Below are positions 2-12,139 of a DNA stretch of 64,000 nt, one piece after another. The stretch lies in NCBI RefSeq assembly GCF_014651515.1, contig NZ_BMXA01000003.1, positions 310,001-374,000 on the forward strand, in the 5' to 3' direction. A program made the translations under genes and the position numbers. This DNA is from Arenicella chitinivorans. GTDB lineage: Bacteria > Pseudomonadota > Gammaproteobacteria > Arenicellales > Arenicellaceae. Numbering within the stretch: the first letter of the stretch is position 1; each line of letters opens with the position of its first letter. The notes beneath the pieces were generated by a model. That model ran no database searches, was not told the origin of the DNA, and saw only the letters and a program-made list of their open reading frames with translations.

Positions 2-1093
2 GAAGAAACTATTGATGAACAAGCGCTGCTCGACGTCGGCATTGTTCTGTTTGACCCGGGTATTGTGGATTTGGACGAGGACATACTCGCGTACTCCAGT
101 GTCCGGCAGAGTGAATCAGTGTGGTTCACCAACCAACTCAAGCAGACTTTGGAGCAGAGTAATGCCTGGGGTCTGATCCGTGCTTTACCGAAAGCGGGCT
201 TGCCAATGGACGTCACGGTGACAGGCGAGTTAATCGAGTCCAATGGTGAGGAGATTGAACTGCAAATTCGGGCCACTGACAGTACCGGTGCGGAGTGGTT
301 TAGGCGCAACTATCAACAACGTGCCAGTGCGTATGCGTATCACCCTGAGGTAAAACTTCCGGGCGATCCATTTCAGGCGACGTTTAATCAGATAGCAAAT
401 GATTTGTACGCGTATCAGGCTAGTTTGAGTCTTACTGCACGGCGTAATATTCGGAGTGTCTCGAGCGTGTTGTTCGCGCGTGATTTTGTGCCGAATGCGT
501 TTGAGGAATATGTGCAGGAAGATCCTGAGTCCGGCACCGTGAGCCTGTTGAGGCTACCTGCGGATTCAGACCCAATGATGCAGCGAGTCGATCGCATTCG
601 TGCACGAAATGATTTGTTTATTGATGTGATTCAAGACTATTACCGGGCATTTAATCGCACGATGGAAGCGCCGTATCAGGAGTGGCGAAAGTTCAGCTAT
701 CGTGAAGTCGTGTACGCGCGCCAGTTGGCGGAGCAGGCGCGCAAAGAAAAAATCGCTGGTCTGGCAGTGATGGCTGGCGGACTGGTCGCTGCAGTGGAGG
801 GCGATCGGGGAATCACACGTGGCGCAGGACACATCGGGATACTATCCGGTGCTCAAATATTTATTAATAGTTTTAAAAAACGCGAACAATCGCTAGTGCA
901 CGCAGAAGCACTGCGTGAGCTGGGTACTTCACTGGCCTCGGAGCTAGAGCCCAGTGTGGTGGATTTGCAGGACCGGAGTATTACATTGTCAGGCACGGTA
1001 GATGACCAATTCACTGAATGGCGTCGTATCTTGCAACAAATGTTTGTGTTGGAACAGGGCGAAACTGACCCGACCTCGGAGGCATTGCGCTGA
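2..1093 (+). CDS. Uncharacterised envelope protein with BON-like C-terminus (5' truncated)
   Basis: The reading frame is open from base 2 of the window, so the true start lies outside; a GTG at 65 is only an internal candidate. I do not recognise the family. The visible 363 residues are soluble-looking and rich in charged residues. The middle carries a long helical stretch with many Arg/Glu (YQEWRKFSYREVVYARQLAEQARKE is split by motif limits here; see bases 680-760), followed by a Gly/Ala-rich patch (LAVMAGGLVAAVEG). The C-terminus ends with a short DLQDRSITLSGTVDDQF segment that resembles a BON domain strand pattern; this is inference. It is the first visible member of a closely spaced + strand operon: the next start is 3 bases after its stop. 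The missing N-terminus probably holds a signal peptide or lipobox. Confidence 0.6.
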   Translation, partial: EETIDEQALLDVGIVLFDPGIVDLDEDILAYSSVRQSESVWFTNQLKQTLEQSNAWGLIRALPKAGLPMDVTVTGELIESNGEEIELQIRATDSTGAEWFRRNYQQRASAYAYHPEVKLPGDPFQATFNQIANDLYAYQASLSLTARRNIRSVSSVLFARDFVPNAFEEYVQEDPESGTVSLLRLPADSDPMMQRVDRIRARNDLFIDVIQDYYRAFNRTMEAPYQEWRKFSYREVVYARQLAEQARKEKIAGLAVMAGGLVAAVEGDRGITRGAGHIGILSGAQIFINSFKKREQSLVHAEALRELGTSLASELEPSVVDLQDRSITLSGTVDDQFTEWRRILQQMFVLEQGETDPTSEALR

Positions 1094-1096
1094 TTC

Positions 1097-2707
1097 ATGT
1101 CTGACCAGGGTCTGCCTCACACTGAATCCCGAGCGGTGCAAAAAATATCGCCGCAGGTATTTTCTGCGCCTGCGCCGGATGTGCCGCCAACTCGTTCAAC
1201 CCCGGATGAGTCACACCACGAACGTGCATGGTGGCAATCGGAGTTCAATCTTATGCTAGTGGTATTTGGCCTGCTGGCCGTCGCCGCGTTTAGTTTCGTG
1301 GTGCTCGCACCGCCACCGGCTGTTACGACGCCGCTCAAGTCGGGTGTCGTGAGCGAGGCTGCGGAGCCTGCGACAACTTTAGTTGACACTGAAGCACCCT
1401 GGAACGATGCACAACGCGCGCAAGCGCGAACCGACTCGCAGGAGATTTTGGCTGACATACTTGCGCTACAGAAGGAACTCACAACACAAACCGTAACCGA
1501 ATGGGCTCCTGATCGGTTTGAAACCGCCCTGGCTATGGCCGCCACTGGCGACGAGTACTACAAAGCGCAGAACTTTCAAGCGGCAATCACTGCGTACCGG
1601 AATTCACTGAGTGAGTTAGAGAACATACGTGCTTTGATCCCCGATGTGATCGCCAGCAAACTCGCCACCGCCCAAGCTGCGGTGCGTGAAGGTAAGGCGG
1701 ATCTCGCGCGGCAACTCTATCAGTCCGTATTGTTGTTGGAGGCCAACAATATTTTAGCACTGACCGGTTTAGACCGCGTCGCAACACTCAACGAGGTGGT
1801 GGAGAAAGTGCAGAGCGCCAAGCGCTATGAAACACGATTCAAAACCACGGATGCCATCGTTGATTTACAACAGGCAGAACAGTTTTATGCCGAAGCGCTG
1901 GCGCTGGATGCGCGTTTTCAGCGCGCGATATCAGGGCAGGCTGCGGTACAGGCATTGATTCGAGATAAGCAATTTCGTGACGCCATGGGCGACGGTTTCA
2001 CTGCCTTGTTCGCGAATCAGTTTTCTCGTGCTCGGGCGGGTTTTTCGGCAGCGCTGAAACTTCGCCCTGACGACCCGGTCGCAAAGTCAGCCTATCAGCA
2101 GGCGCTGGCATCCGACACGCGTTCGTCGCTGGCGTCCATGTTGCAAGCAGCTAAGCAGTTTGAACGTCGTGAGCAGTGGTCGAATGCGGTGAGTAATTAT
2201 CAAGCAGTGTTGCAGCGGGACCCCAACCAGGTGGCAGCGAAACTTGGTTTGATCCGGGCCGGCGCGCGGGCTGAATTGAGTGCCAGTATCGATGCCGCAT
2301 TGCAAGACCCGCTGGCGTTGAGCCGGGACGCACCGATGCAACGCGCTCAAGCAATACTTGCCGATGCGCGTGCGGTTAAGAATCCTGGGCCTCAGTTGCG
2401 CGCGCAAATCGCGCGTTTGGATAAGGCCATACAGGCCGTAGATGTGACGATCAAAGTCGCCTTAACCTCTGATTCAGCCACTCGGGTTACGCTGACTAAG
2501 ACGGGCGCGAGCAGCCTGGAACTGGGCGCGTTTGCACGCAAAAATTTGGCTCTGAAGCCAGGTCGCTATGAGCTGACCGGTGTGCGCCTTGGGTATCAGG
2601 ATGTGCGACGTGAGATTGAGTTGCGACCGACCGATGATGATATTCAAACGTTTGCGATTGCGTGTACCAAACCGGTTGGTGCATTGTCGACGGCAAGTGG
2701 TGATTAG
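1097..2707 (+). CDS. Membrane-anchored TPR-repeat protein with PEGA-like C-terminus
   Basis: The protein has 536 residues. A single hydrophobic segment at about residues 50-71 (NLMLVVFGLLAVAAFSFVVL) follows a polar N-terminal tail of about 49 residues, so it is probably inserted in the inner membrane with a periplasmic body. Residues ~120-420 contain repeated helical pairs of TPR type (for example FQAAITAYRNSL, ARQLYQSVLLLEANNILALTGL, FSRARAGFSAALKLRPDDP, WSNAVSNYQAVLQRDPNQV). The last ~70 residues (LALKPGRYELTGVRLGYQDV) match the PEGA-domain pattern found in repeats in the next gene. TPR proteins act as assembly scaffolds, so a scaffolding role in the envelope apparatus of this operon is likely. 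Its stop codon abuts the next ATG directly. Confidence 0.75.
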   Translation: MSDQGLPHTESRAVQKISPQVFSAPAPDVPPTRSTPDESHHERAWWQSEFNLMLVVFGLLAVAAFSFVVLAPPPAVTTPLKSGVVSEAAEPATTLVDTEAPWNDAQRAQARTDSQEILADILALQKELTTQTVTEWAPDRFETALAMAATGDEYYKAQNFQAAITAYRNSLSELENIRALIPDVIASKLATAQAAVREGKADLARQLYQSVLLLEANNILALTGLDRVATLNEVVEKVQSAKRYETRFKTTDAIVDLQQAEQFYAEALALDARFQRAISGQAAVQALIRDKQFRDAMGDGFTALFANQFSRARAGFSAALKLRPDDPVAKSAYQQALASDTRSSLASMLQAAKQFERREQWSNAVSNYQAVLQRDPNQVAAKLGLIRAGARAELSASIDAALQDPLALSRDAPMQRAQAILADARAVKNPGPQLRAQIARLDKAIQAVDVTIKVALTSDSATRVTLTKTGASSLELGAFARKNLALKPGRYELTGVRLGYQDVRREIELRPTDDDIQTFAIACTKPVGALSTASGD

Positions 2708-4825
2708 ATGACCAAGCAGCCGGATCTCAATAAACTGAAAATCTCGCCAACGGCGTATCAAGCACCCGGTGCCGCTTCACGCGAGCCGCGATTTCGTATT
2801 ACCGTTACGCACATCGCCTTGCTGGCAATAGCGGGTTTCATTCTGGCATTTATCGCGTTTATCACCCTAGCGAAGAGTATTGAGATTCGCGCTGTCAGTG
2901 CCGACTTGAAAGACCCACAGCGCATGGTTTGGCAACCTGCGGATGTGCATATTGCTAGTTGGCTAAAATTGCCTTTGGGTAACCGTGTGTTGGTGTTGCC
3001 AGGTGCTTATGAGGTTAGGATTGATGCTGACGGCTTTGTTCCTCTTAGTCAGTCAATTTCTGTCGCGGGCGATCGTCACCAGCAGATGGATATAGTCATT
3101 CAGCGTTTGCCAGGGAATTTAGAAATCCACTTGCCGGACGCACTTCGCGCCGATGTGTTTTTGGATGGTGAGCTGGCAGCGACATTGCCGGATCTGGTTC
3201 GTGACATTCCTGCCGGTACTCATGAAATTCGTGTTGATGCGCCGTTGTATCGAGCCAAAACACAGCGCGTGCTGATCCGAGGTAAAGGTGAAACTCAAAT
3301 AATGTCTGTCAAGCTCGAGCCCGCGTGGGCCGAATACCAGTTCAGTAGTCAGCCAGCAGGCGCAGATATCGTGATTGATGGCGAGGTGGTCGGGCAAACA
3401 CCAATGTCGGTTAGACTTGAAGAAGGATCTCGTGAGTTGCTAATTCGGGCTGCAAAATCCAAGCCATTCAGCGACACTTTGAATGTCGTCGCGCGGCAGG
3501 ATCTGGTTGTCCCAACCGTGGCACTGGAACCAGCCGATGGTGAGCTTGCGTTACAGAGCAAACCCGCGGGCGCCGCTGTCATCGTCAATGAAGAGTATCG
3601 AGGCACCACGCCATTGACCCTAAATTTACTACCCAACGACGCGCATCGGGTACAAGTCTATAAAGCCGGATACAAACTCGCAGATGAAACATTGAACCTG
3701 GCGCCAGCAGAGAGTCAATCCAAAGAATTTTCGCTTCAGGCCGATCTGATTTCTGTGCAATTCAGTATTCAGCCGAATGATGCCCAAGTGATTATTGATG
3801 GTCAGCCTCGTGGTCGCGGCTCACAAACTATCTCACTCAATTCTCTACCACACCGCGTGCAGGTGACAAAGCCTGGGTACGTCACTCAATCCATTGAGAT
3901 TGTACCAACACGCCAAAACAGACAGATTGTTAGTGTGAATCTGTTGACCGAAGAGCAGCACTATTGGGCACAAATTCCAAACAGTTACACGAATAAACTG
4001 GGGCATGAAATGGTCTTGTTCCGCAATCTTGGCGAAGTGCAAATGGGGTCTTCTCGAAGAGAAAATGGTCGTCGTGCCAATGAGGTTGTCTATACCGCAG
4101 AGTTGACCAAACCCTTTTTCGTGGCTAAGCACGAGACCACAAATAAACAGTTCAGAGTGTTCAAGAAAACGCACAATGCTGGAAACTTCAAGCAAAAAAG
4201 CCTAGATGCCCATCGTGCACCGGCGGTTAATATTTCCTGGCAGGAAGCGGCGCTGTACTGCAATTGGTTGAGCCAGATCGAGGGTTTAGACCCGTTTTAT
4301 ACCACCCAGTCGGGGTTCGTCGCTGGGATGAATAAAGACGCGAATGGTTACCGTTTACTGACCGAGGTAGAGTGGGCTTGGCTAGCGCGCAACATCGATG
4401 ATAGCGTGTTGGTGTACCCTTGGGGAAACAGCACAATGCCTGCTAGCAAGGTAGGGAATTTCGCGGATGAGCAAGCGGCAGAGCTGTTGGCGTTCACCTT
4501 ATCGGATTATGACGATGGTTTTCGTGGCCCCAGTCCTGTTGGTCGTTTCCCACCGAATCACCGTGGTCTTTTTGACATGGCGGGGAATGTATCCGAATGG
4601 GTTAATGATTGGTATAGCGCTAAGGGTAATACCGACGTGGGAAAAGGCGTATTGCGTGATCCGCTTGGGCCTGAAATTGGCGAGTTTCATGTTGTTCGTG
4701 GTGCCAGCTGGGCCAAAGGGCATCTGCCTCAATTACGTTTGGCATATCGCGATTACGGCGCAAAGGGAGAGCATGATGTTGGTTTTCGGGTTGCGCGTTA
4801 TGCAGGATTGAATAAGCAAAAATAA
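2708..4825 (+). CDS. PEGA-repeat protein with C-terminal formylglycine-generating-enzyme-like domain
   Basis: 705 residues. Residues ~32-54 form one membrane segment. Residues ~90-400 hold about four PEGA-type repeats (LPGAYEVRIDADGFVPL, IPAGTHEIRVDAPLYRAKTQ, AGADIVIDGEVVGQTPMSV, AGAAVIVNEEYRGTTPLTL, NDAQVIIDGQPRGRGSQ). Residues ~415-700 form a sulfatase-modifying-factor (FGE/SUMF1) fold: ISWQEAALYCNWLS, YRLLTEVEWAWLAR, YPWGN, DMAGNVSEWVNDWY and a terminal VGFRVAR. In true FGEs paired cysteines or bound copper make formylglycine; the family also contains many non-catalytic, C-type-lectin-fold binding modules. I do not see the FGE active-site Cys pair near the C-terminus, so a structural or ligand-binding role is more likely. 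No sulfatase gene is visible nearby. It is encoded directly between the TPR scaffold and the TolQ-like channel gene. Confidence 0.85.
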   Translation: MTKQPDLNKLKISPTAYQAPGAASREPRFRITVTHIALLAIAGFILAFIAFITLAKSIEIRAVSADLKDPQRMVWQPADVHIASWLKLPLGNRVLVLPGAYEVRIDADGFVPLSQSISVAGDRHQQMDIVIQRLPGNLEIHLPDALRADVFLDGELAATLPDLVRDIPAGTHEIRVDAPLYRAKTQRVLIRGKGETQIMSVKLEPAWAEYQFSSQPAGADIVIDGEVVGQTPMSVRLEEGSRELLIRAAKSKPFSDTLNVVARQDLVVPTVALEPADGELALQSKPAGAAVIVNEEYRGTTPLTLNLLPNDAHRVQVYKAGYKLADETLNLAPAESQSKEFSLQADLISVQFSIQPNDAQVIIDGQPRGRGSQTISLNSLPHRVQVTKPGYVTQSIEIVPTRQNRQIVSVNLLTEEQHYWAQIPNSYTNKLGHEMVLFRNLGEVQMGSSRRENGRRANEVVYTAELTKPFFVAKHETTNKQFRVFKKTHNAGNFKQKSLDAHRAPAVNISWQEAALYCNWLSQIEGLDPFYTTQSGFVAGMNKDANGYRLLTEVEWAWLARNIDDSVLVYPWGNSTMPASKVGNFADEQAAELLAFTLSDYDDGFRGPSPVGRFPPNHRGLFDMAGNVSEWVNDWYSAKGNTDVGKGVLRDPLGPEIGEFHVVRGASWAKGHLPQLRLAYRDYGAKGEHDVGFRVARYAGLNKQK

Positions 4826-4826
4826 C

Positions 4827-5096
4827 ATGGTTAAACACACACTCTTTTTCCTCCTTATGGTTTGGTGTGCCACCGCCTTGGCACAAATACCAAGCAATGA
4901 TTCCGACTTACCAGCGTCTGATTCGTCAGCCGACACGGCAACCGACACAGCCGGTGATGCAGCGGAGCGTGAGCGCGAACTAGCGCGCCAAGAAGAAGCA
5001 CGAGCGCGTGAAGCCGCCAAAAAGCGGGACGACAATTACGTGCCGTCCGAAGAAATCAGCGATGATCTACCGGCACCGTTTCCGGTCGACATTTAG
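4827..5096 (+). CDS. Small secreted low-complexity protein
   Basis: 89 residues starting one base after the preceding stop. It has a clear signal peptide (HTLFFLLMVWCATALA, cleavage likely after ALA). The mature part is very acidic at first (SDLPASDSSADTATDTAG) and then Arg/Glu/Ala-rich (ERERELARQEEARAREAAKK), suggesting a short helix, and ends with DDLPAPFPVDI. No family is recognised. Its position between the PEGA protein and the channel subunit, with no separate promoter visible, suggests a small periplasmic accessory of the same apparatus. Coding confidence comes from the signal peptide, tight spacing and lack of a better ORF. Confidence 0.6.
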   Translation: MVKHTLFFLLMVWCATALAQIPSNDSDLPASDSSADTATDTAGDAAERERELARQEEARAREAAKKRDDNYVPSEEISDDLPAPFPVDI

Positions 5097-5128
5097 ATCA
5101 CACGAGACTAACAATAACAAACTAGCCC

Positions 5129-5935
5129 ATGATGAAATTTCAAAAGTCTGAATTCTTTTACCAGTTGGTAGCCCTCGTGTTGTCGTTTTTGGTAGTCCAT
5201 ACGGTGTATGTCGGTTTGGTACGTCCCAACGCCGATGCCGTGCTCGAGGCAGAACGTCAAGCGATTGCAGCACAGCAGGAGTCGGGCGAAACCGTGACGA
5301 TTGAACGGTCGGCCTGGGTGGTCCTTAAAGACTACGAACAGGAAGCCTGTTTTATTTTGATGTTCTGGGTGATGGCGATCATGGGCTTGAAGGCGCAGGC
5401 GGTTGGTGCCCAGCGTAAACTGTTAAGTCAGTCTTTAGTGAAAATCGAAGAAGGGCGACGGGTCTTGCCTGAGGATGCGCGTAAACTTGCGCGGCCTTTG
5501 GAAGCCTTACCACAGCCCGAGCGGGGGTTTCTGTTGCCGCGTGCGTTACGAGCGGCATTGAACCGTTATGGTTCCACCGGCTCGGTGGCGGACGTGTCGA
5601 GCGTGGTGCGCGACCTGTGTGATACGGAAGCCGATCGATTGGATTCCGAGTTATCAATGGTGCGCTATATCACTTGGGCGATACCGTCTATTGGCTTTAT
5701 TGGTACGGTACGCGGGATTGGGACGGCGCTGGGCAACGCACACGAAGCGGTAGCTGGCAACATTGCGGCGGTCACCGCCAGTCTGGGTGTGGCATTCAAC
5801 TCCACCTTCGTGGCGTTGTTGATCAGTATTGTAATCATGTTTCTGACTCATCAGATTACCTTGATGCAAGAACGGATGGTGATGGAAACACAGGATTACT
5901 GTGACGACAATTTAATCCGACATATGCAGAGCTAG
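5129..5935 (+). CDS. MotA/TolQ/ExbB-family proton channel subunit (non-canonical)
   Basis: 268 residues. Membrane segments lie at about residues 10-30, 72-92, 180-203 and 215-242. The last two carry the family signature: WAIPSIGFIGTVRGIGTALG and TASLGVAFNSTFVALLISI, which match the TM2/TM3 regions of TolQ/ExbB/MotA that line the ion path. The family forms pentamers around two copies of a B subunit (TolR, ExbD or MotB) and converts the proton motive force into rotation or mechanical work. A separate, canonical tolQ-tolR pair lies at 15719-16917, so this is a second system. No TolR/ExbD-like gene follows; instead two vWA proteins with an ExbD-like N-terminal segment are encoded at 7256-9327. 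There are two possible starts (ATG at 5129 and 5132). Confidence 0.88.
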   Translation: MMKFQKSEFFYQLVALVLSFLVVHTVYVGLVRPNADAVLEAERQAIAAQQESGETVTIERSAWVVLKDYEQEACFILMFWVMAIMGLKAQAVGAQRKLLSQSLVKIEEGRRVLPEDARKLARPLEALPQPERGFLLPRALRAALNRYGSTGSVADVSSVVRDLCDTEADRLDSELSMVRYITWAIPSIGFIGTVRGIGTALGNAHEAVAGNIAAVTASLGVAFNSTFVALLISIVIMFLTHQITLMQERMVMETQDYCDDNLIRHMQS

Positions 5936-5953
5936 GGCCCGAGAGACAACGAA

Positions 5954-7240
5954 ATGCAAAAACTATTTCATATCAACGATAACCGCTTACAACTGCAAAG
6001 TGATCGTGTGGTGGATCTTGGTCAGGGCTACGCTTGGCTTAAGGGAGACCAGGTATTGTTTGATGAGCGGGATGATATGTCGCCAGTGCGTGCCTGCCGA
6101 TTGACCCCACAAGAGATTAATAATCGTTATTGGCAATTATGCGATCAAAGTGCGATTCCAGCCAACGATGCTGGTATGCGGCATACAGCTGATTTGATCT
6201 GGAAGCATTTGACGACTTTGCATCAGGCCCACGACTTAGACGAGGTCACGCTGGTGGTCCCGTCGCATTACCACGAAACTAATTTGCAGTTATTGCTGGG
6301 TATTGCTCAGTCGTGCGGGGTTGGTGTTAAAGCCATGGTGAACAAAGCGGTGTTGGCGCTGTGCGGGAAAACCGACGGACCGGGTATGTATCGCCACATA
6401 GATGTTCAACTGCATCAGACCGTTATTTCACACCTGCAAGCGGTGGATGGGAATCTGCTGCTGACGTCGGTGGATGTGATCTCGGATGTGGGCATGCACC
6501 TGATTCAGGAGGCCTTGTTACAAGGGCTGCAGACGCGTTTTATCCAAAGCGATCGTTTTGACCCTCTACATAATGCGCAGACGGAACAACAGTTATTTGA
6601 TCAGCTTGCTGACATCGCAATACAGGTCGGCGGTGCTGGCAAAGCCAATGTTGCTTTGGATCACCAAGGGCAATTGCATGCAACGAGCATTGAGGCTCAG
6701 GAATGGGATGCCTTGTTGGCACCGTTCATGCAGCGTGTACTTACCGTTGCAAGTCAGGCGGACGCGGTGTCGGTGTTCGTGGACTTAAATGGAATGTTTG
6801 AGCACGCTGTGCCAACGATGCTCCTAGAGTCTGGCGTGCGCGTGGTGAAAAAACTACCCGCCATACCACGAGCGCTGCAATCGCTGACCCGCGATGATGA
6901 ACCTAGTTATTTAGCCGAGTTGCCATGCCGCGTTGCAGATGCAGGTACCTCATCTTCGGCTGCAGATACAAGGGCCCCCTCGCGTGACGTGACACATGAG
7001 GCGACCGACGTGACGCATATCCTGTCCGCTGGTTGTGCGATACCGATGCACCGTGCGCACGTCGCTGCAAAGTCAAACGCATTGATCGTGCGCCAAGGTG
7101 AACCAAATGTGGCGCAGCTACTGGCGCAAGGTTCATTGTCGATTTTGAATGATGAGGCGCGCAAGGAATTGCGTCCGAATGATCGGCTTGGCTCGAATCT
7201 GGCGGATGGCGTGTTAACTGCTATTCGTGTGCTGGAGTAA
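5954..7240 (+). CDS. Divergent actin/Hsp70-fold-like protein
   Basis: 428 residues, no signal peptide and no membrane segment, so probably cytoplasmic. The segment VTLVVPSHYHETNLQLLLGIAQSCGVGVKAMVNKAVLAL resembles the actin/Hsp70 block in which a protein activates ligand binding and then presents the NEPTAA-like turn (split here at about residues 100-138). The DPLHNAQTEQQLFDQLADIA segment is also reminiscent of Hsp70 lobe IIA. The canonical phosphate-binding DxGxxxT loop is not visible at the N-terminus (VDLGQGYAWLKGD is the nearest), so ATPase activity is uncertain. The fold assignment is inference from motif resemblance. The gene sits between the channel subunit and the first vWA gene, 18 bases after the former and 15 before the latter. 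Confidence 0.65.
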   Translation: MQKLFHINDNRLQLQSDRVVDLGQGYAWLKGDQVLFDERDDMSPVRACRLTPQEINNRYWQLCDQSAIPANDAGMRHTADLIWKHLTTLHQAHDLDEVTLVVPSHYHETNLQLLLGIAQSCGVGVKAMVNKAVLALCGKTDGPGMYRHIDVQLHQTVISHLQAVDGNLLLTSVDVISDVGMHLIQEALLQGLQTRFIQSDRFDPLHNAQTEQQLFDQLADIAIQVGGAGKANVALDHQGQLHATSIEAQEWDALLAPFMQRVLTVASQADAVSVFVDLNGMFEHAVPTMLLESGVRVVKKLPAIPRALQSLTRDDEPSYLAELPCRVADAGTSSSAADTRAPSRDVTHEATDVTHILSAGCAIPMHRAHVAAKSNALIVRQGEPNVAQLLAQGSLSILNDEARKELRPNDRLGSNLADGVLTAIRVLE

Positions 7241-7255
7241 CGAGAGACAGTTCGT

Positions 7256-8332
7256 ATGGCGCGCAAAAAGATCCGAAACACGTCTACCTTTAGTTTGTCC
7301 TTTTTGGACATCATGTCTTGTGGTCTGGGGGCAGCGGTGTTGATTTTCCTGTTATTGAAGCATGTTGTTGACGCACCGGTGACCATGCAAGATCCTCAAG
7401 TGATGTCTGAGATTAGCTTGCTGGAGGAGGAGATCTTGGCGGGTGAGAAAGACCTGGTTCGGATTCGCAACACCATGAGTGACACCAGCGATGAGTCGGT
7501 GATCGCCCAAGGTTTGGCGCGTCGTATTCAAGATGACATTGATAAACTACAGGCTGAGATCGAAGAAATTCAGCCAGAGTCGGATAACAATGTGCCAGGG
7601 CTCAAGGCCAAGATTGCACGTTTGGCACGTCAGAAACGTGCCCTAGAAGCTGAAATACCAGCGGGTAATAAAGCCTATGAATTTACCGGCGATGGTGAGC
7701 GCCAGTACCTGACTGGGGTTCGTCTCGGTGGTGAGAACGTGCTGATTCTGGTCGATGCATCAGCGAGTATGCTTGACGAAAGCATTGTTAACGTTTTACG
7801 ACGTCGAAATATGCGTGATGAATTCAAACTGCAAGCGCCGAAATGGAATCGCACTTTGGCCATCACGCAATGGATTGTGGCGAATCTGCCAATGACCAGC
7901 GATTTTCAGGTGCTGGCCTTTAATGACGATGTGAAACCCGTCTTTGGCGACCAGGTAGATAACTGGTATCAAGTGGCTGATCGTGCTTCTGTGGCCTCGG
8001 CGGTACAGGGAATGTCAACGGTGGTGCCAGAAAAAGGCACCAATCTGCACAAGGTGTTTGAAGCGGCTATGGCCATGCGCCCGAAGCCAGACAATATCTT
8101 TTTGATCACCGATGGGCTGCCAACGCAAGGTGGGGACGCGCCAACTTCAGGCAGTATCTCTGGCCGGGATCGATTGCGAGTGTTTAATGACGCGGTGGGG
8201 CTATTGAAAGGCGTGTCGGTCAATACGTTTTTGTTGCCAATGGAGGGCGACCCATACGCAGCAGCGGCATTCTGGCGCTTGGCGATTCGCAGTCGTGGTT
8301 CATTTGTGACACCAGCGAGGGATTGGCCATGA
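7256..8332 (+). CDS. Membrane-anchored vWA protein 1 with ExbD-like N-terminal segment
   Basis: 358 residues. A basic start (ARKKIRNTS) is followed by one membrane segment at ~14-36 beginning SFLDIMSCGLGAAVLIF, then a coiled-coil region at ~50-135 (EEEILAGEKDLVRI, RLARQKRALEAEI), then a von Willebrand factor A domain from ~155. The MIDAS metal site is complete in its first part: D167-A-S-A-S171, with a later TDG (LITDGLPTQGG). vWA domains bind metal and mediate protein contact in the envelope. Asp18 occupies the position of the proton-carrying Asp in TolR/ExbD (YIDVMLVLL). The domain ends shortly before the stop. The gene overlaps the second vWA gene by ATGA. Confidence 0.85.
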   Translation: MARKKIRNTSTFSLSFLDIMSCGLGAAVLIFLLLKHVVDAPVTMQDPQVMSEISLLEEEILAGEKDLVRIRNTMSDTSDESVIAQGLARRIQDDIDKLQAEIEEIQPESDNNVPGLKAKIARLARQKRALEAEIPAGNKAYEFTGDGERQYLTGVRLGGENVLILVDASASMLDESIVNVLRRRNMRDEFKLQAPKWNRTLAITQWIVANLPMTSDFQVLAFNDDVKPVFGDQVDNWYQVADRASVASAVQGMSTVVPEKGTNLHKVFEAAMAMRPKPDNIFLITDGLPTQGGDAPTSGSISGRDRLRVFNDAVGLLKGVSVNTFLLPMEGDPYAAAAFWRLAIRSRGSFVTPARDWP

Positions 8333-9327
8333 GTCGACGACGCAGACGGTCTGGTGAGGATGCTAGTATTTCGTTTTTGGACATCATCTGCTGTGGCTTT
8401 GGTGCGATAGTGTTGCTGCTGGTCATCGTGAAGCCAAGTCAACCGGTGGTGCTTGAGGAATCCCTGGTCCAAGACAAAGGGCAGGTTCGAGCGTTGCAGG
8501 AGCGTTTATTCGAGATTCGCGGGCAGGTAAAATTTTTAGAAACCGAGCTGAATGCGAAACACGAACAGTTGGGCAAAGATCAGCGTCGCGTCGCGATTTT
8601 GCGAGGCGAATTGGAGCAATTGGTTGCCATGCGCGCCAGCATTGATGATGGTGGTGCCGATACTGCGACGCAGGTTGAAGACCTGCAGATCGCGTTGCAA
8701 TCGTTGACACGAGAGATGCAACGCTTGCTAAAAGGGCGCAAGCGAATTAACGAATACGTAGCTGGTGTGCCGGTCGACTCTGAATACATCATTTTTATTA
8801 TTGACAGCTCAGGCAGTATGACCACCAGCGCCTGGCCAAAGCTGGTGCGCGAGGTGCAGAATACCCTAGCAATCTACCCAAAAGTAAAAGGCATTCAAAT
8901 CATGAATAATGAGGGTATCTATATGTTTCCTCAATATCGTGGTCGCTTTATGGAGGATTCACCGACGCGTCGCCGTGACATTATCCGCAAATTGGTTAAT
9001 TGGTCGGCTTTCAGTGCGTCGACGCCGGTCGGTGGTATTACTACGGCGATTAAACAACACTACGATAAAGACAAGAAAATTAGCTTGTACGTGATGGGTG
9101 ATGACTATCAGGGGCGATCTGTTCAGCGTGTGGTGAAGATCGTAGAACAATTGAATCAGCGCAATAAGCAAGGCGAAACACTGGTACGTATTCACAGCGT
9201 AGGCTTCCCAGTTTTGGTCGGCACATCAACAGGTGTCAATAGCTCGGCAACTCGATATGCTAACCTAATGCGACAGTTGGCCGAACACAATAACGGTACA
9301 TTTATAGGTCTGAATGATGTTAGGTAA
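8329..9327 (+). CDS. Membrane-anchored vWA protein 2 with ExbD-like N-terminal segment
   Basis: 332 residues from the ATG at 8329, which overlaps the previous stop in an ATGA arrangement (translational coupling); a TTG two codons upstream is less likely. Architecture repeats that of the preceding gene: Arg-rich start (SRRRRRSGED), membrane segment at ~14-35 beginning ISFLDIICCGFGAIVLLL, coiled coil at ~45-140, vWA domain from ~150 with MIDAS D159-S-S-G-S163 (IIFIIDSSGSM). The motif Asp is again residue 18. The two proteins are clearly paralogous in the N-terminal 35 residues but diverged in the vWA domain, which points to a heterodimeric B subunit rather than recent duplication. That pairing is inference. 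Confidence 0.86.
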   Translation: MSRRRRRSGEDASISFLDIICCGFGAIVLLLVIVKPSQPVVLEESLVQDKGQVRALQERLFEIRGQVKFLETELNAKHEQLGKDQRRVAILRGELEQLVAMRASIDDGGADTATQVEDLQIALQSLTREMQRLLKGRKRINEYVAGVPVDSEYIIFIIDSSGSMTTSAWPKLVREVQNTLAIYPKVKGIQIMNNEGIYMFPQYRGRFMEDSPTRRRDIIRKLVNWSAFSASTPVGGITTAIKQHYDKDKKISLYVMGDDYQGRSVQRVVKIVEQLNQRNKQGETLVRIHSVGFPVLVGTSTGVNSSATRYANLMRQLAEHNNGTFIGLNDVR

Positions 9328-9970
9328 GTCTCTACAGCTGCAACGATGGTATTCGATTTCGACGCTGCTCATGCTCATCGCATTGAGCGGCTGTAGCACG
9401 TCTGTGGTGGTCAAAAGTGATATTCCCAGCCCATTGGTCGAGCGATTGCCAATTAATGGTGCCATACGCTACACCGACGAATTCCGCAACTACGTCTACA
9501 GTGAAGAAGAGAAGAAGCGCACGTTGAAAAAGTTGGATTTCACCGAGGCGCAAATCACCATGTTTGATCGCATCTTTGGCAGTTTGGTAACGCTGGTGCC
9601 ATTAGATGAACCTAATCGACACTTGGTGATTGAGCCGGAGATCTTAGATCTGCAGTACACCGCACCCAAAGAGACCAAGCTCAATCAATACGAAATCTGG
9701 ATTAAGTATCGAATTCGTTTGGTGGATGCCAACGACAATAAAATCGCGGATTGGATTATCAAGGGTTACGGTAAGACGCCGACAGCGCTGCTTGGTTCGG
9801 CCAGTTCAGGGTTCAATGCTGCTGCCAATATTGCGCTGCGTGATGTTGGGGCTCAATTGGCTATTGGCTTTGGTCGCCAATCGAAGATCCGCGCACTTAC
9901 CGGTGTCAAGCAAGTGCGGGTTCGAGACGTTGCCATTGACTCGGAATCGAGCGCGCAGCCTGCTAAATAA
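9314..9970 (+). CDS. Putative lipoprotein of unknown function
   Basis: 218 residues. The start overlaps the end of the second vWA gene by 14 bases (ATG at 9314; a second ATG at 9317). A signal peptide ends in a lipobox (LMLIALSGC, Cys near residue 27), so the mature protein is expected to be lipidated. The body is a mixed alpha/beta domain of about 190 residues with no recognised family (LDFTEAQITMFDRIFG, NQYEIWIKYRIRLVD, NKIADWIIKGYGK, FNAAANIALRDVGAQLAI). The last segment has the alternating pattern seen in outer-membrane-associated lipoproteins that oligomerise, but I cannot assign a family. It is translationally linked to the vWA genes and is probably part of the same apparatus. Confidence 0.7.
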   Translation: MMLGKSLQLQRWYSISTLLMLIALSGCSTSVVVKSDIPSPLVERLPINGAIRYTDEFRNYVYSEEEKKRTLKKLDFTEAQITMFDRIFGSLVTLVPLDEPNRHLVIEPEILDLQYTAPKETKLNQYEIWIKYRIRLVDANDNKIADWIIKGYGKTPTALLGSASSGFNAAANIALRDVGAQLAIGFGRQSKIRALTGVKQVRVRDVAIDSESSAQPAK

Positions 9971-9985
9971 ATCGGAGGAGAGTCC

Positions 9986-10666
9986 ATGTCATTTGTGTCA
10001 AAATTCAAACTCAGTTTCATTATTACCATGTCATGGTTGATGATCGGCTGCACCACGATCAATGTTGACCATGTGCGATTGCGTGATGATATTGAATTGA
10101 ATGCCGGTGACGCAATGGTTGTTCTTGGACGACACCAAACGGCAGAAATTCAGACTGAAGCGTCGTTGGTGGCCTGCATTGGAGGTCGTCTTACGCGTGG
10201 GACTGATAAGGTCCGGATCATTCCGGAGTCTGAGTTTGTGGATGCATTCTACCCTTGGTTTGAGGCTCGAACCGCCCCACTCCGACCTGCGAAATTAAAG
10301 AAAGTTTTGGATCAGCCGATGGTGGCTGCCAAAATCGCCGCGATGAAAATACGGTACTTCGTCTGGGTAGAGGGTTCGACCGAGCGTACCAACTCCGCTG
10401 GCAGTATGACCTGCTCAATCGGTCCCGGCGGCGGCGGGTGTTTCGGTTTTGGCACCTGGGAGGACACCAGTGACTATGAAACCACCATCTGGGATTTAAA
10501 AACTTTTTCTGAAGTTGGGCGCGTGAGCACTGAGGCCGTAGGTACTTCGTATATGCCCGCATTCGTGATTCCAATTCCCTTGCTGGCTCAGGTCGAGGGC
10601 GATGCCTGTCAAGGCATGGGTAATCAGCTGGTGCGGTTTTTCTCAGACGTAAGTGTTCAAGAGTAG
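9986..10666 (+). CDS. Putative lipoprotein of unknown function
   Basis: 226 residues preceded by a strong ribosome-binding site (GGAGGAG, 5 bases before ATG). The signal peptide ends in a lipobox (MSWLMIGC, Cys near residue 23). The mature domain contains a VGRxxTRGT-like stretch and a Cys- and Gly-rich turn (SMTCSIGPGGGGCFGFG) followed by TTIWDLKTF and GTSYMPAFVIPIPLLAQ, a pattern I have seen in uncharacterised bacterial lipoproteins but cannot name. Three further cysteines (about residues 53, 139, 147 and 211) could form disulfides. It lies between the first lipoprotein and the M48 protease with short gaps, suggesting one operon. Confidence 0.7.
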   Translation: MSFVSKFKLSFIITMSWLMIGCTTINVDHVRLRDDIELNAGDAMVVLGRHQTAEIQTEASLVACIGGRLTRGTDKVRIIPESEFVDAFYPWFEARTAPLRPAKLKKVLDQPMVAAKIAAMKIRYFVWVEGSTERTNSAGSMTCSIGPGGGGCFGFGTWEDTSDYETTIWDLKTFSEVGRVSTEAVGTSYMPAFVIPIPLLAQVEGDACQGMGNQLVRFFSDVSVQE

Positions 10667-10672
10667 AAAACA

Positions 10673-12139
10673 ATGCTGTTGACTCAATCAAATCGCATCC
10701 GCTACTGCGTAACTTTGCTTAGTTTGGCATTCAGTATGCTATTGATACAGCCGGTGTTGGCGCAGACCAAGGAGCAACTTAAAAAGCTGGAAGAAACAAC
10801 CGGTCTGAAAGGCAAAAAATTGAAGCGCCACTTGGCGATTTTGCAGCAGTCGCCACCGTATAAAGACGATGAGCTGCAAGCCTATGTGACAGAAATAGGC
10901 AACAAGATATTGGCACAGAGTGAACACGCCCATCTTCCGTATAAATTTATCGTTCGTGACACGGAAGTGGTGAACGCTTTTGTGAATGGAACGCCGTATG
11001 TGTTCGTTGAGCGTGGTTTGCTAACGCTGCTGAACTCGGAAGCAGAATTAGCCGCGGTGATGGCCCATGAGATTGGACACAATGTGGCCAAGCATTCCAA
11101 GAAGCTACAGTCAAAAAACCGCCGGGATGTGTTCCTTGCTAACCTGGCCAGTTTTTTAGTTGGTAACTCGGGGGTTGGTAATGCCATTATGGCGCAAAGT
11201 TCAGTTTCGTTGTATGAGTATAAGCGTGAAGCGGAGCTTGAGGCAGATTCCTTTGCGGCAAAGTACTTAGCGGGGGCAGGGTATGAGCCCGATCAATTAG
11301 TGAACGCGTTGGCACAGTTGCGTGATAATGCGATATTGGCGGCCACGACCACCGGCCAGCCTATGGCGCATCACGGTTTGGCGGCGTCGCATCCGCGTAA
11401 TGACAAGCGAATCCGTGAGGCCATTGAAGACGCCAGTATCCTGCCACCTGGCGAAGGGTATATCGGGCGAGAAGAATATCGGGCTGCGATTGATGGGTTG
11501 GTGTATGGCCCCAATTATCGGCGCAATGCGCCAAGTGGTATGAAGCGCTACTCCAATCCAACCTTGGGCATTACTTTTGTGTATCCCGAAACCTGGAGTT
11601 TTAAGCTTAAAGGCAGCAAAGTTGTTCTAAAGGATGCGGAGAAAACCGCGCAGATGACCATTGAAATCGAGCCAACACCGGACCGAAAGCTGAGCAGTGA
11701 AGAAGCAATTAAGCTTAAGTACCCGGAAGGCTTGGTTGATCTGCAAAAGGTGCATCCCGATTCTGAACGCGATCTGGGTACCGTCGGTGCACGCCCGGCG
11801 CAGCGGGTCGCGCTGATAATGGTGGCGCGGAATACCTATCACTTTCTTGGGATTGCCAAGAACAATCAGATTAACGCAGACCAGGATCGGGCCTTCGTCG
11901 ATATTATTCGTTCGTTTCGTCCGATGACACCCAAAGACCGCACCGCTGACCACGTAAAAGAGGTTTACTTTGAACGCCTTGAGCCGGGCGAGACTTTCGA
12001 ATCAATGGCGAAAGGGGCCGGGTTGGATGACGTCAATGCTGAGTTAGAGTTGCGCGTTTTAAATGGCTACTACCCAGACGGCGAGGCTGAGCCGGGAACT
12101 TGGATCAAAAAACTGCGTCAGGTCAAGATCGAGCCGTGA
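10673..12139 (+). CDS. Secreted M48-family zinc metalloprotease
   Basis: 488 residues with a signal peptide (LLSLAFSMLLIQPVLAQ, cleavage near residue 30). The peptidase domain shows the zinc motif H132-E-I-G-H136 (VMAHEIGHNVAKHSKK) and the third ligand region REAELEADSFAAKYLAGAGY, typical of periplasmic M48 enzymes such as BepA and LoiP, which control outer-membrane protein and LPS assembly. A second domain from ~270 (LGITFVYPETWSFKLKG) and a C-terminal part with a LysM-like stretch (RLEPGETFESMAKGAGLDD... TWIKKLRQVKI) follow; the latter is common in M48 proteins with TPR or LysM tails. It closes the operon; a 100-base gap and a promoter candidate precede yebC. Confidence 0.88.
   Translation: MLLTQSNRIRYCVTLLSLAFSMLLIQPVLAQTKEQLKKLEETTGLKGKKLKRHLAILQQSPPYKDDELQAYVTEIGNKILAQSEHAHLPYKFIVRDTEVVNAFVNGTPYVFVERGLLTLLNSEAELAAVMAHEIGHNVAKHSKKLQSKNRRDVFLANLASFLVGNSGVGNAIMAQSSVSLYEYKREAELEADSFAAKYLAGAGYEPDQLVNALAQLRDNAILAATTTGQPMAHHGLAASHPRNDKRIREAIEDASILPPGEGYIGREEYRAAIDGLVYGPNYRRNAPSGMKRYSNPTLGITFVYPETWSFKLKGSKVVLKDAEKTAQMTIEIEPTPDRKLSSEEAIKLKYPEGLVDLQKVHPDSERDLGTVGARPAQRVALIMVARNTYHFLGIAKNNQINADQDRAFVDIIRSFRPMTPKDRTADHVKEVYFERLEPGETFESMAKGAGLDDVNAELELRVLNGYYPDGEAEPGTWIKKLRQVKIEP

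Follow-up and report, generated by a model that had tools for sequence, protein, structure and literature searches.

A conserved proteobacterial gene cluster joins a predicted TolQ/vWA-pair motor to a Cys-less protein of the formylglycine-generating enzyme fold and an exported mini-protein

Arenicella chitinivorans carries a run of 13 genes (g1 to g13) that encodes a real, conserved and uncharacterised machine, whose engine is very probably a TolQ/ExbB/MotA-type channel subunit working with two different vWA domain proteins. The run crosses the edge of the window, the 64,000-nucleotide stretch analysed here (contig NZ_BMXA01000003.1, positions 310,001 to 374,000 of the forward strand), which comes from a genome of 4.03 Mb in 17 contigs. 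An earlier sequence-only reading had described eleven tightly spaced plus-strand genes in the window. These co-directional, densely packed genes are real, and the run is extended to 13 by g1 and g2, which sit after a murB-like gene upstream of the window. The core of the run, g2-g3-g4-g5-g6-g7-g9-g10, recurs in constant order in several gammaproteobacterial groups and in another class of the phylum, and also occurs away from tol-pal. At the level of sequence, the channel family, the proton-path residues, the pairing of vWA proteins, the failure to find a TolR and the fixed core are established. The motor reading of g7 and the vWA pair is in our judgement highly probable, and the whole picture of a proton-driven trans-envelope machine is somewhat favoured.

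The constancy of the cluster was assessed with profile hidden Markov models (HMMs) built from the window proteins and close homologues, which were run on the open reading frames (ORFs) of 71 loci chosen by the presence of a vWA or channel gene; these loci include L006, the window's own flank, and L087, a repeat of L048. Seven core genes were scored by HMM (g2, g3, g4, g5, g7, g9 and g10). All seven were found in order at 46 of the 71 loci, and the order among the genes present was kept at 69, the exceptions being L132 and L134, so that the comparison of gene order across genomes proposed in the sequence-only reading came out in favour of a single system. The remaining 25 loci fall short of seven genes in order, 20 of which were read as cut by the end of a contig or stretch, leaving L041, L074, L132, L133 and L134. 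The accessory genes g1, g8, g11, g12 and g13 are restricted to some groups.

Several individual loci are worth describing. L132 has all seven core genes with g7 last (L132:11814-12614, behind vWA2), and L134 also has g7 last (L134:11930-12727, behind vWA2), with g3 not recognised. Neither g3 nor g7 was recognised in the 18 kb of L133. The g2 tail of L041 is present in the DNA and was missed by HMM scoring, and foreign-looking sequence at L041:1-1250 may mark an assembly join; a similar possible join is seen in L074, where foreign-looking DNA lies upstream of g6 at the place expected for core genes. An extra 2-3 kb of DNA was found between g5 and g6 in L135 (about 4744-7024) and between g4 and g5 in L134 (about 4006-6906), the gene order being otherwise kept. 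Genome G050 contains a second, core-only cluster (L051, G050:C7:38000-57000) beside its full copy, L050.

The strongest evidence concerns the motor. The g7 protein matches the channel family PF01618 (3.4e-13; 49.9 bits against a cut-off of 22.9), in agreement with the earlier description of a TolQ/MotA-type channel lacking a TolR/ExbD partner in the cluster. Residues were counted with L006, L087, matches above 1e-20 and short rows left out (fewer than 200 residues for g7, 230 for the vWA proteins and 550 for g5), and frames were read upstream of the called start. Each of two Thr residues of g7, which we take to be the paired pore-lining Thr of ExbB/TolQ on the basis of residue numbers and a by-eye match to the genome's own TolQ, is kept in 66/66 rows. 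The two vWA proteins, to which the sequence-only reading had assigned the place of TolR/ExbD, each begin with a basic stretch and then a helix, which in the window contains S-F-L-D-I/V, and the Asp of this helix is present in 67/67 rows of vWA1 and 64/64 rows of vWA2. The match of these helices to the TolR helix was judged by eye, and visual inspection of the aligned N-termini (7 and 12 rows) showed no SHLS motif. Because both proteins carry the TolR/ExbD-type Asp and the channel has the paired pore Thr, the vWA pair is very probably the equivalent of TolR/ExbD. When the window's TolR was used as a phmmer query against the 71 loci (E <= 0.01), four ORFs were returned. Each of them belongs to a tol-pal cluster, where it is flanked by a tolQ-like and a tolA-like ORF, and the loci concerned are from the window's genus.

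On a FastTree tree, the 67 rows of vWA1 and the 64 rows of vWA2 fall into two distinct groups with a support of 1.0. The Asp, Ser and Ser of the metal ion-dependent adhesion site (MIDAS) of vWA1 are kept in 66, 67 and 67 of the 67 rows, respectively, and those of vWA2 in 64/64 rows at each site. The vWA1 MIDAS Thr is replaced by Ser in L132 and L134, and the vWA2 column taken as the MIDAS Thr is mostly Ser (54/64), with Ser in the preceding column in all 64 rows. In L071, L072, L074 and L077, vWA1 apparently uses a start codon that is not ATG, GTG or TTG, and the frame upstream of the first ATG was found to encode the Asp helix (AFLDIM in all four). One candidate vWA2 row, L055_10847, was a false match and was removed by a stricter cut.

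The small secreted protein of the sequence-only reading is g6, which turns out to be a core part. The HMM search of locus ORFs returned 43 members of its family, every one of them (43/43) ending in P-x-D-I, and missed g6 in part of the loci. Absence of g6 from the core-only loci was ruled out by reading the DNA of the g5-g7 gap, which at core-only loci without an HMM match encodes a short ORF with the same ending, except for a variant in L051. In some genomes, including core-only loci, g6 amounts to little beyond a hydrophobic signal segment and about 20 residues. Counts of the tail cover 69 loci (995,342 bases, six frames), L006, L087 and the window being left out. A (F/Y/L/M)P-x-D-I tail is encoded at 64 of the 66 loci that hold the gap, and the broader pattern (F/Y/L/M/I/V/W)P-x-D-I followed by a stop occurs only twice outside the gap. 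The five loci without the tail are L037, L043 and L121, which do not hold the gap, together with L051 and L133, which end in IPANI and IPSDM, respectively. Over 65 rows, the tail codons vary synonymously (three codons for Ile, four for Pro and two each for Asp and Phe), which points to selection on the protein. A 17-residue segment with a mean hydropathy of at least 1.6 was detected in 57 of the 65 rows, and conservation of g6 is mostly confined to the tail. In the window's genome, g6 and one 12-residue ORF are the sole carriers of F-P-x-D-I-stop, which rules out a common sorting signal in that genome. No related paper, judged by title, was found in the open-access literature, and we consider a specific role for the tail possible and rather doubtful.

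The C-terminal domain of g5 has the fold of formylglycine-generating enzymes (FGE), and its matches to FGE enzymes (7.6e-16) and to PorK (8e-15) are of similar quality. The place of the catalytic Cys pair, which we take in part from alignment to FGE enzymes and PorK, was examined as the ten columns after the RGxSW motif; no Cys occurs there in 53/53 alignable rows (of 55 rows, two do not reach it). The candidate role of g5 as a formylglycine-generating enzyme was rejected since this pair is absent. A single Cys was noted farther on, past this stretch, in g5 of L075. Membership of the GldK/PorK family was also rejected, the score against the GldK model being 86.1 bits, far under its cut-off of 350, and FGE enzymes scoring alike. 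PorK itself reportedly keeps the FGE fold, lacks both Cys and uses the former substrate groove as a docking surface (PMC12421860). Among the other candidate assembly parts, the C-terminus of g4 is PEGA/CarboxypepD-like, with a weak match (0.03). The g2 rows differ in their middle part and share a C-terminal block of roughly 35 residues, L051 and L136 being the most divergent. In L048, the end of g3 resembles BON faintly at most (0.069), and g1 ends in a TonB_C domain (2.3e-7), a match that was not found in the window's g1.

The g8 protein has no signal sequence by eye. Its first 313 residues have an Hsp70/actin fold; a Pfam HSP70 match was obtained for 1 of 17 members (5.6e-4), and the usual Gly/Thr-rich phosphate motifs are not apparent by eye in the alignment. 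In L049, the g8 homologue carries a C-terminal FHA domain (7.4e-9). Because FHA was found in this 1 of 17 members, an FHA-like end of the window's g8 may be suggested from the alignment only.

How widely does the cluster occur? A vWA1 match at E <= 1e-6 was obtained in 51 of 100 genomes sampled in the window's order, and sampling of 369 genomes in the class gave 30 with a vWA2 profile match at E <= 1e-10; these 30 belong to 16 families and include four from the window's genus, the window's genome among them. Across the phylum, 15 of 398 sampled genomes match the channel profile at E <= 1e-40, and 12 of the 15 belong to a single family outside the window's class. Judged by vWA1, the named records nearest the window's genome are from Arenicella; an unclassified gammaproteobacterial record, 96% identical in vWA1, is also close. 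A contig labelled Nitrospinia bacterium (L049) carries g6-g10, with a channel of 54% identity, and is cut before g5; its placement could reflect mis-binning or transfer. At E <= 1e-20, the channel profile was found in 2 of 77 genomes in the phylum of that Nitrospinia-labelled genome, that genome counted.

The coordinates of the features are collected in the table. The flanks of the cluster vary by group. In the window, g13 is followed by yebC-, ruvC-, ruvA- and ruvB-like genes and then tol-pal (gene names by eye), and this yebC/tol-pal side is seen in the window's genus; different genes are present in Microbulbifer and the other loci printed. The sequence-only reading had taken the adjacency to tol-pal as a hint of related envelope work, and this hint is lost, the adjacency being limited to the window's genus. 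A Pfam scan of g11 and g12 returned no match.

Table. Features of the 13-gene run, with positions in the window.
Feature	Position	Strand	Description	Set
g1	upstream of window		TPR protein; export signal by eye	accessory
g2	upstream of window		lipoprotein by eye	core
g3	2..1093	+	C-terminal part; lipoprotein by eye; start at about L006:11846, just outside the window	core
g4	1097..2707	+	TPR protein; N-terminal membrane helix by eye	core
g5	2708..4825	+	N-terminal membrane helix by eye, five PEGA stretches, C-terminal FGE-fold domain	core
FGE-fold domain of g5	4025..4798	+	residues 440-697
g6	4827..5096	+	small exported protein	core
g6 C-terminal tail	5079..5096	+	FPVDI + stop
g7	5129..5935	+	TolQ/ExbB/MotA-type channel subunit	core
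g7 Thr193	5705-5707	+	pore-type Thr
g7 Thr226	5804-5806	+	pore-type Thr
g8	5954..7240	+	Hsp70/actin fold (residues 1-313) and C-terminal part	accessory
g9 (vWA1)	7256..8332	+	N-terminal helix with Asp18 (7307-7309), coiled-coil-like stretch, vWA domain with MIDAS residues	core
g10 (vWA2)	8329..9327	+	N-terminal helix with Asp18 (8380-8382), coiled-coil-like stretch, vWA domain; overlaps g9 at an ATGA junction	core
g11	9314..9970	+	lipoprotein by eye	accessory
g12	9986..10666	+	lipoprotein by eye	accessory
g13	10673..12139	+	M48-family metallopeptidase (HEIGH)	accessory

In the machine that we somewhat favour, g7 would form the channel ring of a 5:2-type motor powered by the proton gradient, and a single copy each of vWA1 and vWA2 would contribute one central helix with a proton-carrying Asp, the pair standing in for TolR, ExbD or MotB. 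We infer both the stoichiometry, with one helix of each vWA protein in the pentamer, and rotation. The vWA heads, held in the periplasm by the coiled coils, would turn or pull an assembly of g5 and g4, in which g5 would provide PEGA arms and, through its catalytically dead FGE fold, a docking hub; g4 would add a TPR/PEGA part. At the outer membrane, this assembly would connect to lipoproteins g2 and g3, and it may be driven much in the way proposed for PorLM and the FGE-fold ring of PorK in type IX secretion. The exported mini-protein g6 would dock through its (F)P-x-D-I tail in the FGE groove of g5 or in the metal site of a vWA domain. On the cytoplasmic side g8 may act as a regulator or clamp, and g1, g11, g12 and g13 would be accessories for envelope attachment and remodelling. 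Our best guess is that the machine moves or exports surface or outer-membrane proteins, and the earlier suggestion of force-driven envelope work is to this extent borne out as the presumed function. A bolder version, in which a distinct machine of Proteobacteria functionally parallels the type IX/gliding system with an asymmetric vWA1-vWA2 rotor, and in which the nearly invariant P-x-D-I peptide of g6 is a ligand moving between a vWA metal site and the dead FGE groove, is offered as a rather doubtful possibility.

Several observations weigh against this machine. The 13 genes are not everywhere together, g1, g8, g11, g12 and g13 being missing from many loci. The search that found no TolR/ExbD in the cluster used a single sequence, which could miss a divergent TolR/ExbD, and a g7 alignment profile matched no solved structure in the PDB at E <= 0.01. 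The g3 structure model is too poor to use (predicted local distance difference test score of 45.7). By score, PorK is not a nearer match to the g5 FGE domain than the FGE enzymes are, and the type IX analogy therefore rests on the parts list. In L133, vWA1 lacks the MIDAS Asp and Thr and retains the helix Asp; because these MIDAS residues have been lost, the metal site of vWA1 may be non-essential.

The same parts could instead belong to a static or slowly tuned complex for envelope anchoring or stress sensing, with protons gating or reporting the binding of vWA proteins to lipoproteins and no sustained rotation or transport. PEGA, TPR and vWA domains, lipoproteins and an M48 protease are all tether-like, and the FHA domain in one g8 homologue together with the Hsp70/actin fold suggests signalling. 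However, the two Asp and two Thr of the proton path show no variation in any scored row, an invariance that a mere sensor would not obviously require, and we regard such a complex as rather unlikely. An outer-membrane export or surface-assembly machine that counts g6 among its cargo, with the tail as a sorting signal and the motor exporting or polymerising g6, would account for a protein that is short, exported-looking and conserved mainly at its tail. This proposal is less probable still, since no gene for an outer-membrane channel was recognised in the cluster and F-P-x-D-I-stop is not shared by many substrates in the window's genome.

It is very improbable that the cluster is an anti-phage or conflict system akin to Zorya or to vWA-MoxR systems. 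PEGA and FGE-type domains are known in some vWA-containing conflict systems (PMC7159879), and g7 gave weak matches to ZorA models (E-values of 0.038 and 0.015). These matches reach only 12.9 bits against the ZorA_4 cut-off of 500, and 12.3 bits with the second model, and g7 was rejected as a ZorA. Moreover, a PADLOC scan of 10 of the 13 proteins (all except g1, g2 and g12) had a best value of 0.0013, for the coiled coil of vWA1; nuclease, helicase and MoxR genes were not recognised; and the gene order is kept across families. A plasmid search with vWA1 and vWA2 found none at E <= 1e-3; with g7, the plasmid search gave three distant matches.

For the favoured machine, what would the cluster offer? 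It provides a parts list with fixed gene order for a motor type found in print only as a prediction, and its function becomes testable, including the partner engaged by the vWA heads, the roles of the g6 tail and of the FGE hub, and the identity of the moved component. A rotor of two different subunits, if true, would be an asymmetric version of 5:2 motors. A Cys-less, repurposed FGE fold beside a proton motor in both the type IX system and this cluster would, if true, be a notable parallel.

Known systems share parts of this composition. Zorya (ZorA/ZorB) has a MotA-family channel in common with the cluster, whereas no DNA-processing genes were recognised here, as the sequence-only reading had already noted in setting the two apart. 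Tol-Pal (TolQRA) and Ton (ExbBD-TonB) share the channel family PF01618 and the Asp/Thr proton path. In contrast, the partners in the cluster bear vWA where TolR has its periplasmic domain, and no membrane-anchored TolA/TonB was recognised, only the TonB_C end on g1 of L048. The type IX/gliding system (PorLM-PorKN, GldLM-GldKN) shares a proton-driven pentamer with a dimeric shaft and a Cys-less FGE-fold docking hub, as described in the source (PMC12421860). Its shaft ends in Ig-fold domains and that of the cluster in vWA; its FGE-fold protein has a lipid anchor, whereas the FGE domain of g5 follows PEGA repeats and a membrane helix. No PorN/GldN- or Sov/SprA-like genes were recognised in the cluster, no profile search having been aimed at them.

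The closest system in print is the second vWA family of Williams-Jones et al. (2025), which co-occurs with tolQ homologues, without tolR/exbD and mostly as heterologous pairs (PMC12204202). According to the text of that paper, its members have a transpore helix with a conserved Asp, and AlphaFold 3 models show a Thr ring; the family is called putative there, and the first vWA family, for which a TPR gene is named, is stated to be of unknown function. The TolQ-like gene with no TolR/ExbD found beside it, the occurrence in Proteobacteria, the two different vWA proteins with TolR-type Asp and the paired channel Thr are all shared, and the motor of the window fits the published description in each feature tested, a likeness of description and not of alignment. 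Among the records listed in one contig scan, none was from Idiomarina (the proteins of PMC12204202 come from Idiomarina loihiensis). For this second family, the text and legend of the paper mention no PEGA/FGE, lipoprotein, g6, Hsp70-like or M48 genes, and the words 'PEGA' and 'formylglycine' are absent from its main text. The earlier label 'undescribed' accordingly fails for the motor, predicted in 2025, and holds for the rest of the cluster, for which no description was found in the open-access literature. The cluster is not categorically new, because its motor is a published prediction (PMC12204202); the new part, and the likely surprise to specialists, is the composition of the cluster together with the tail of g6.

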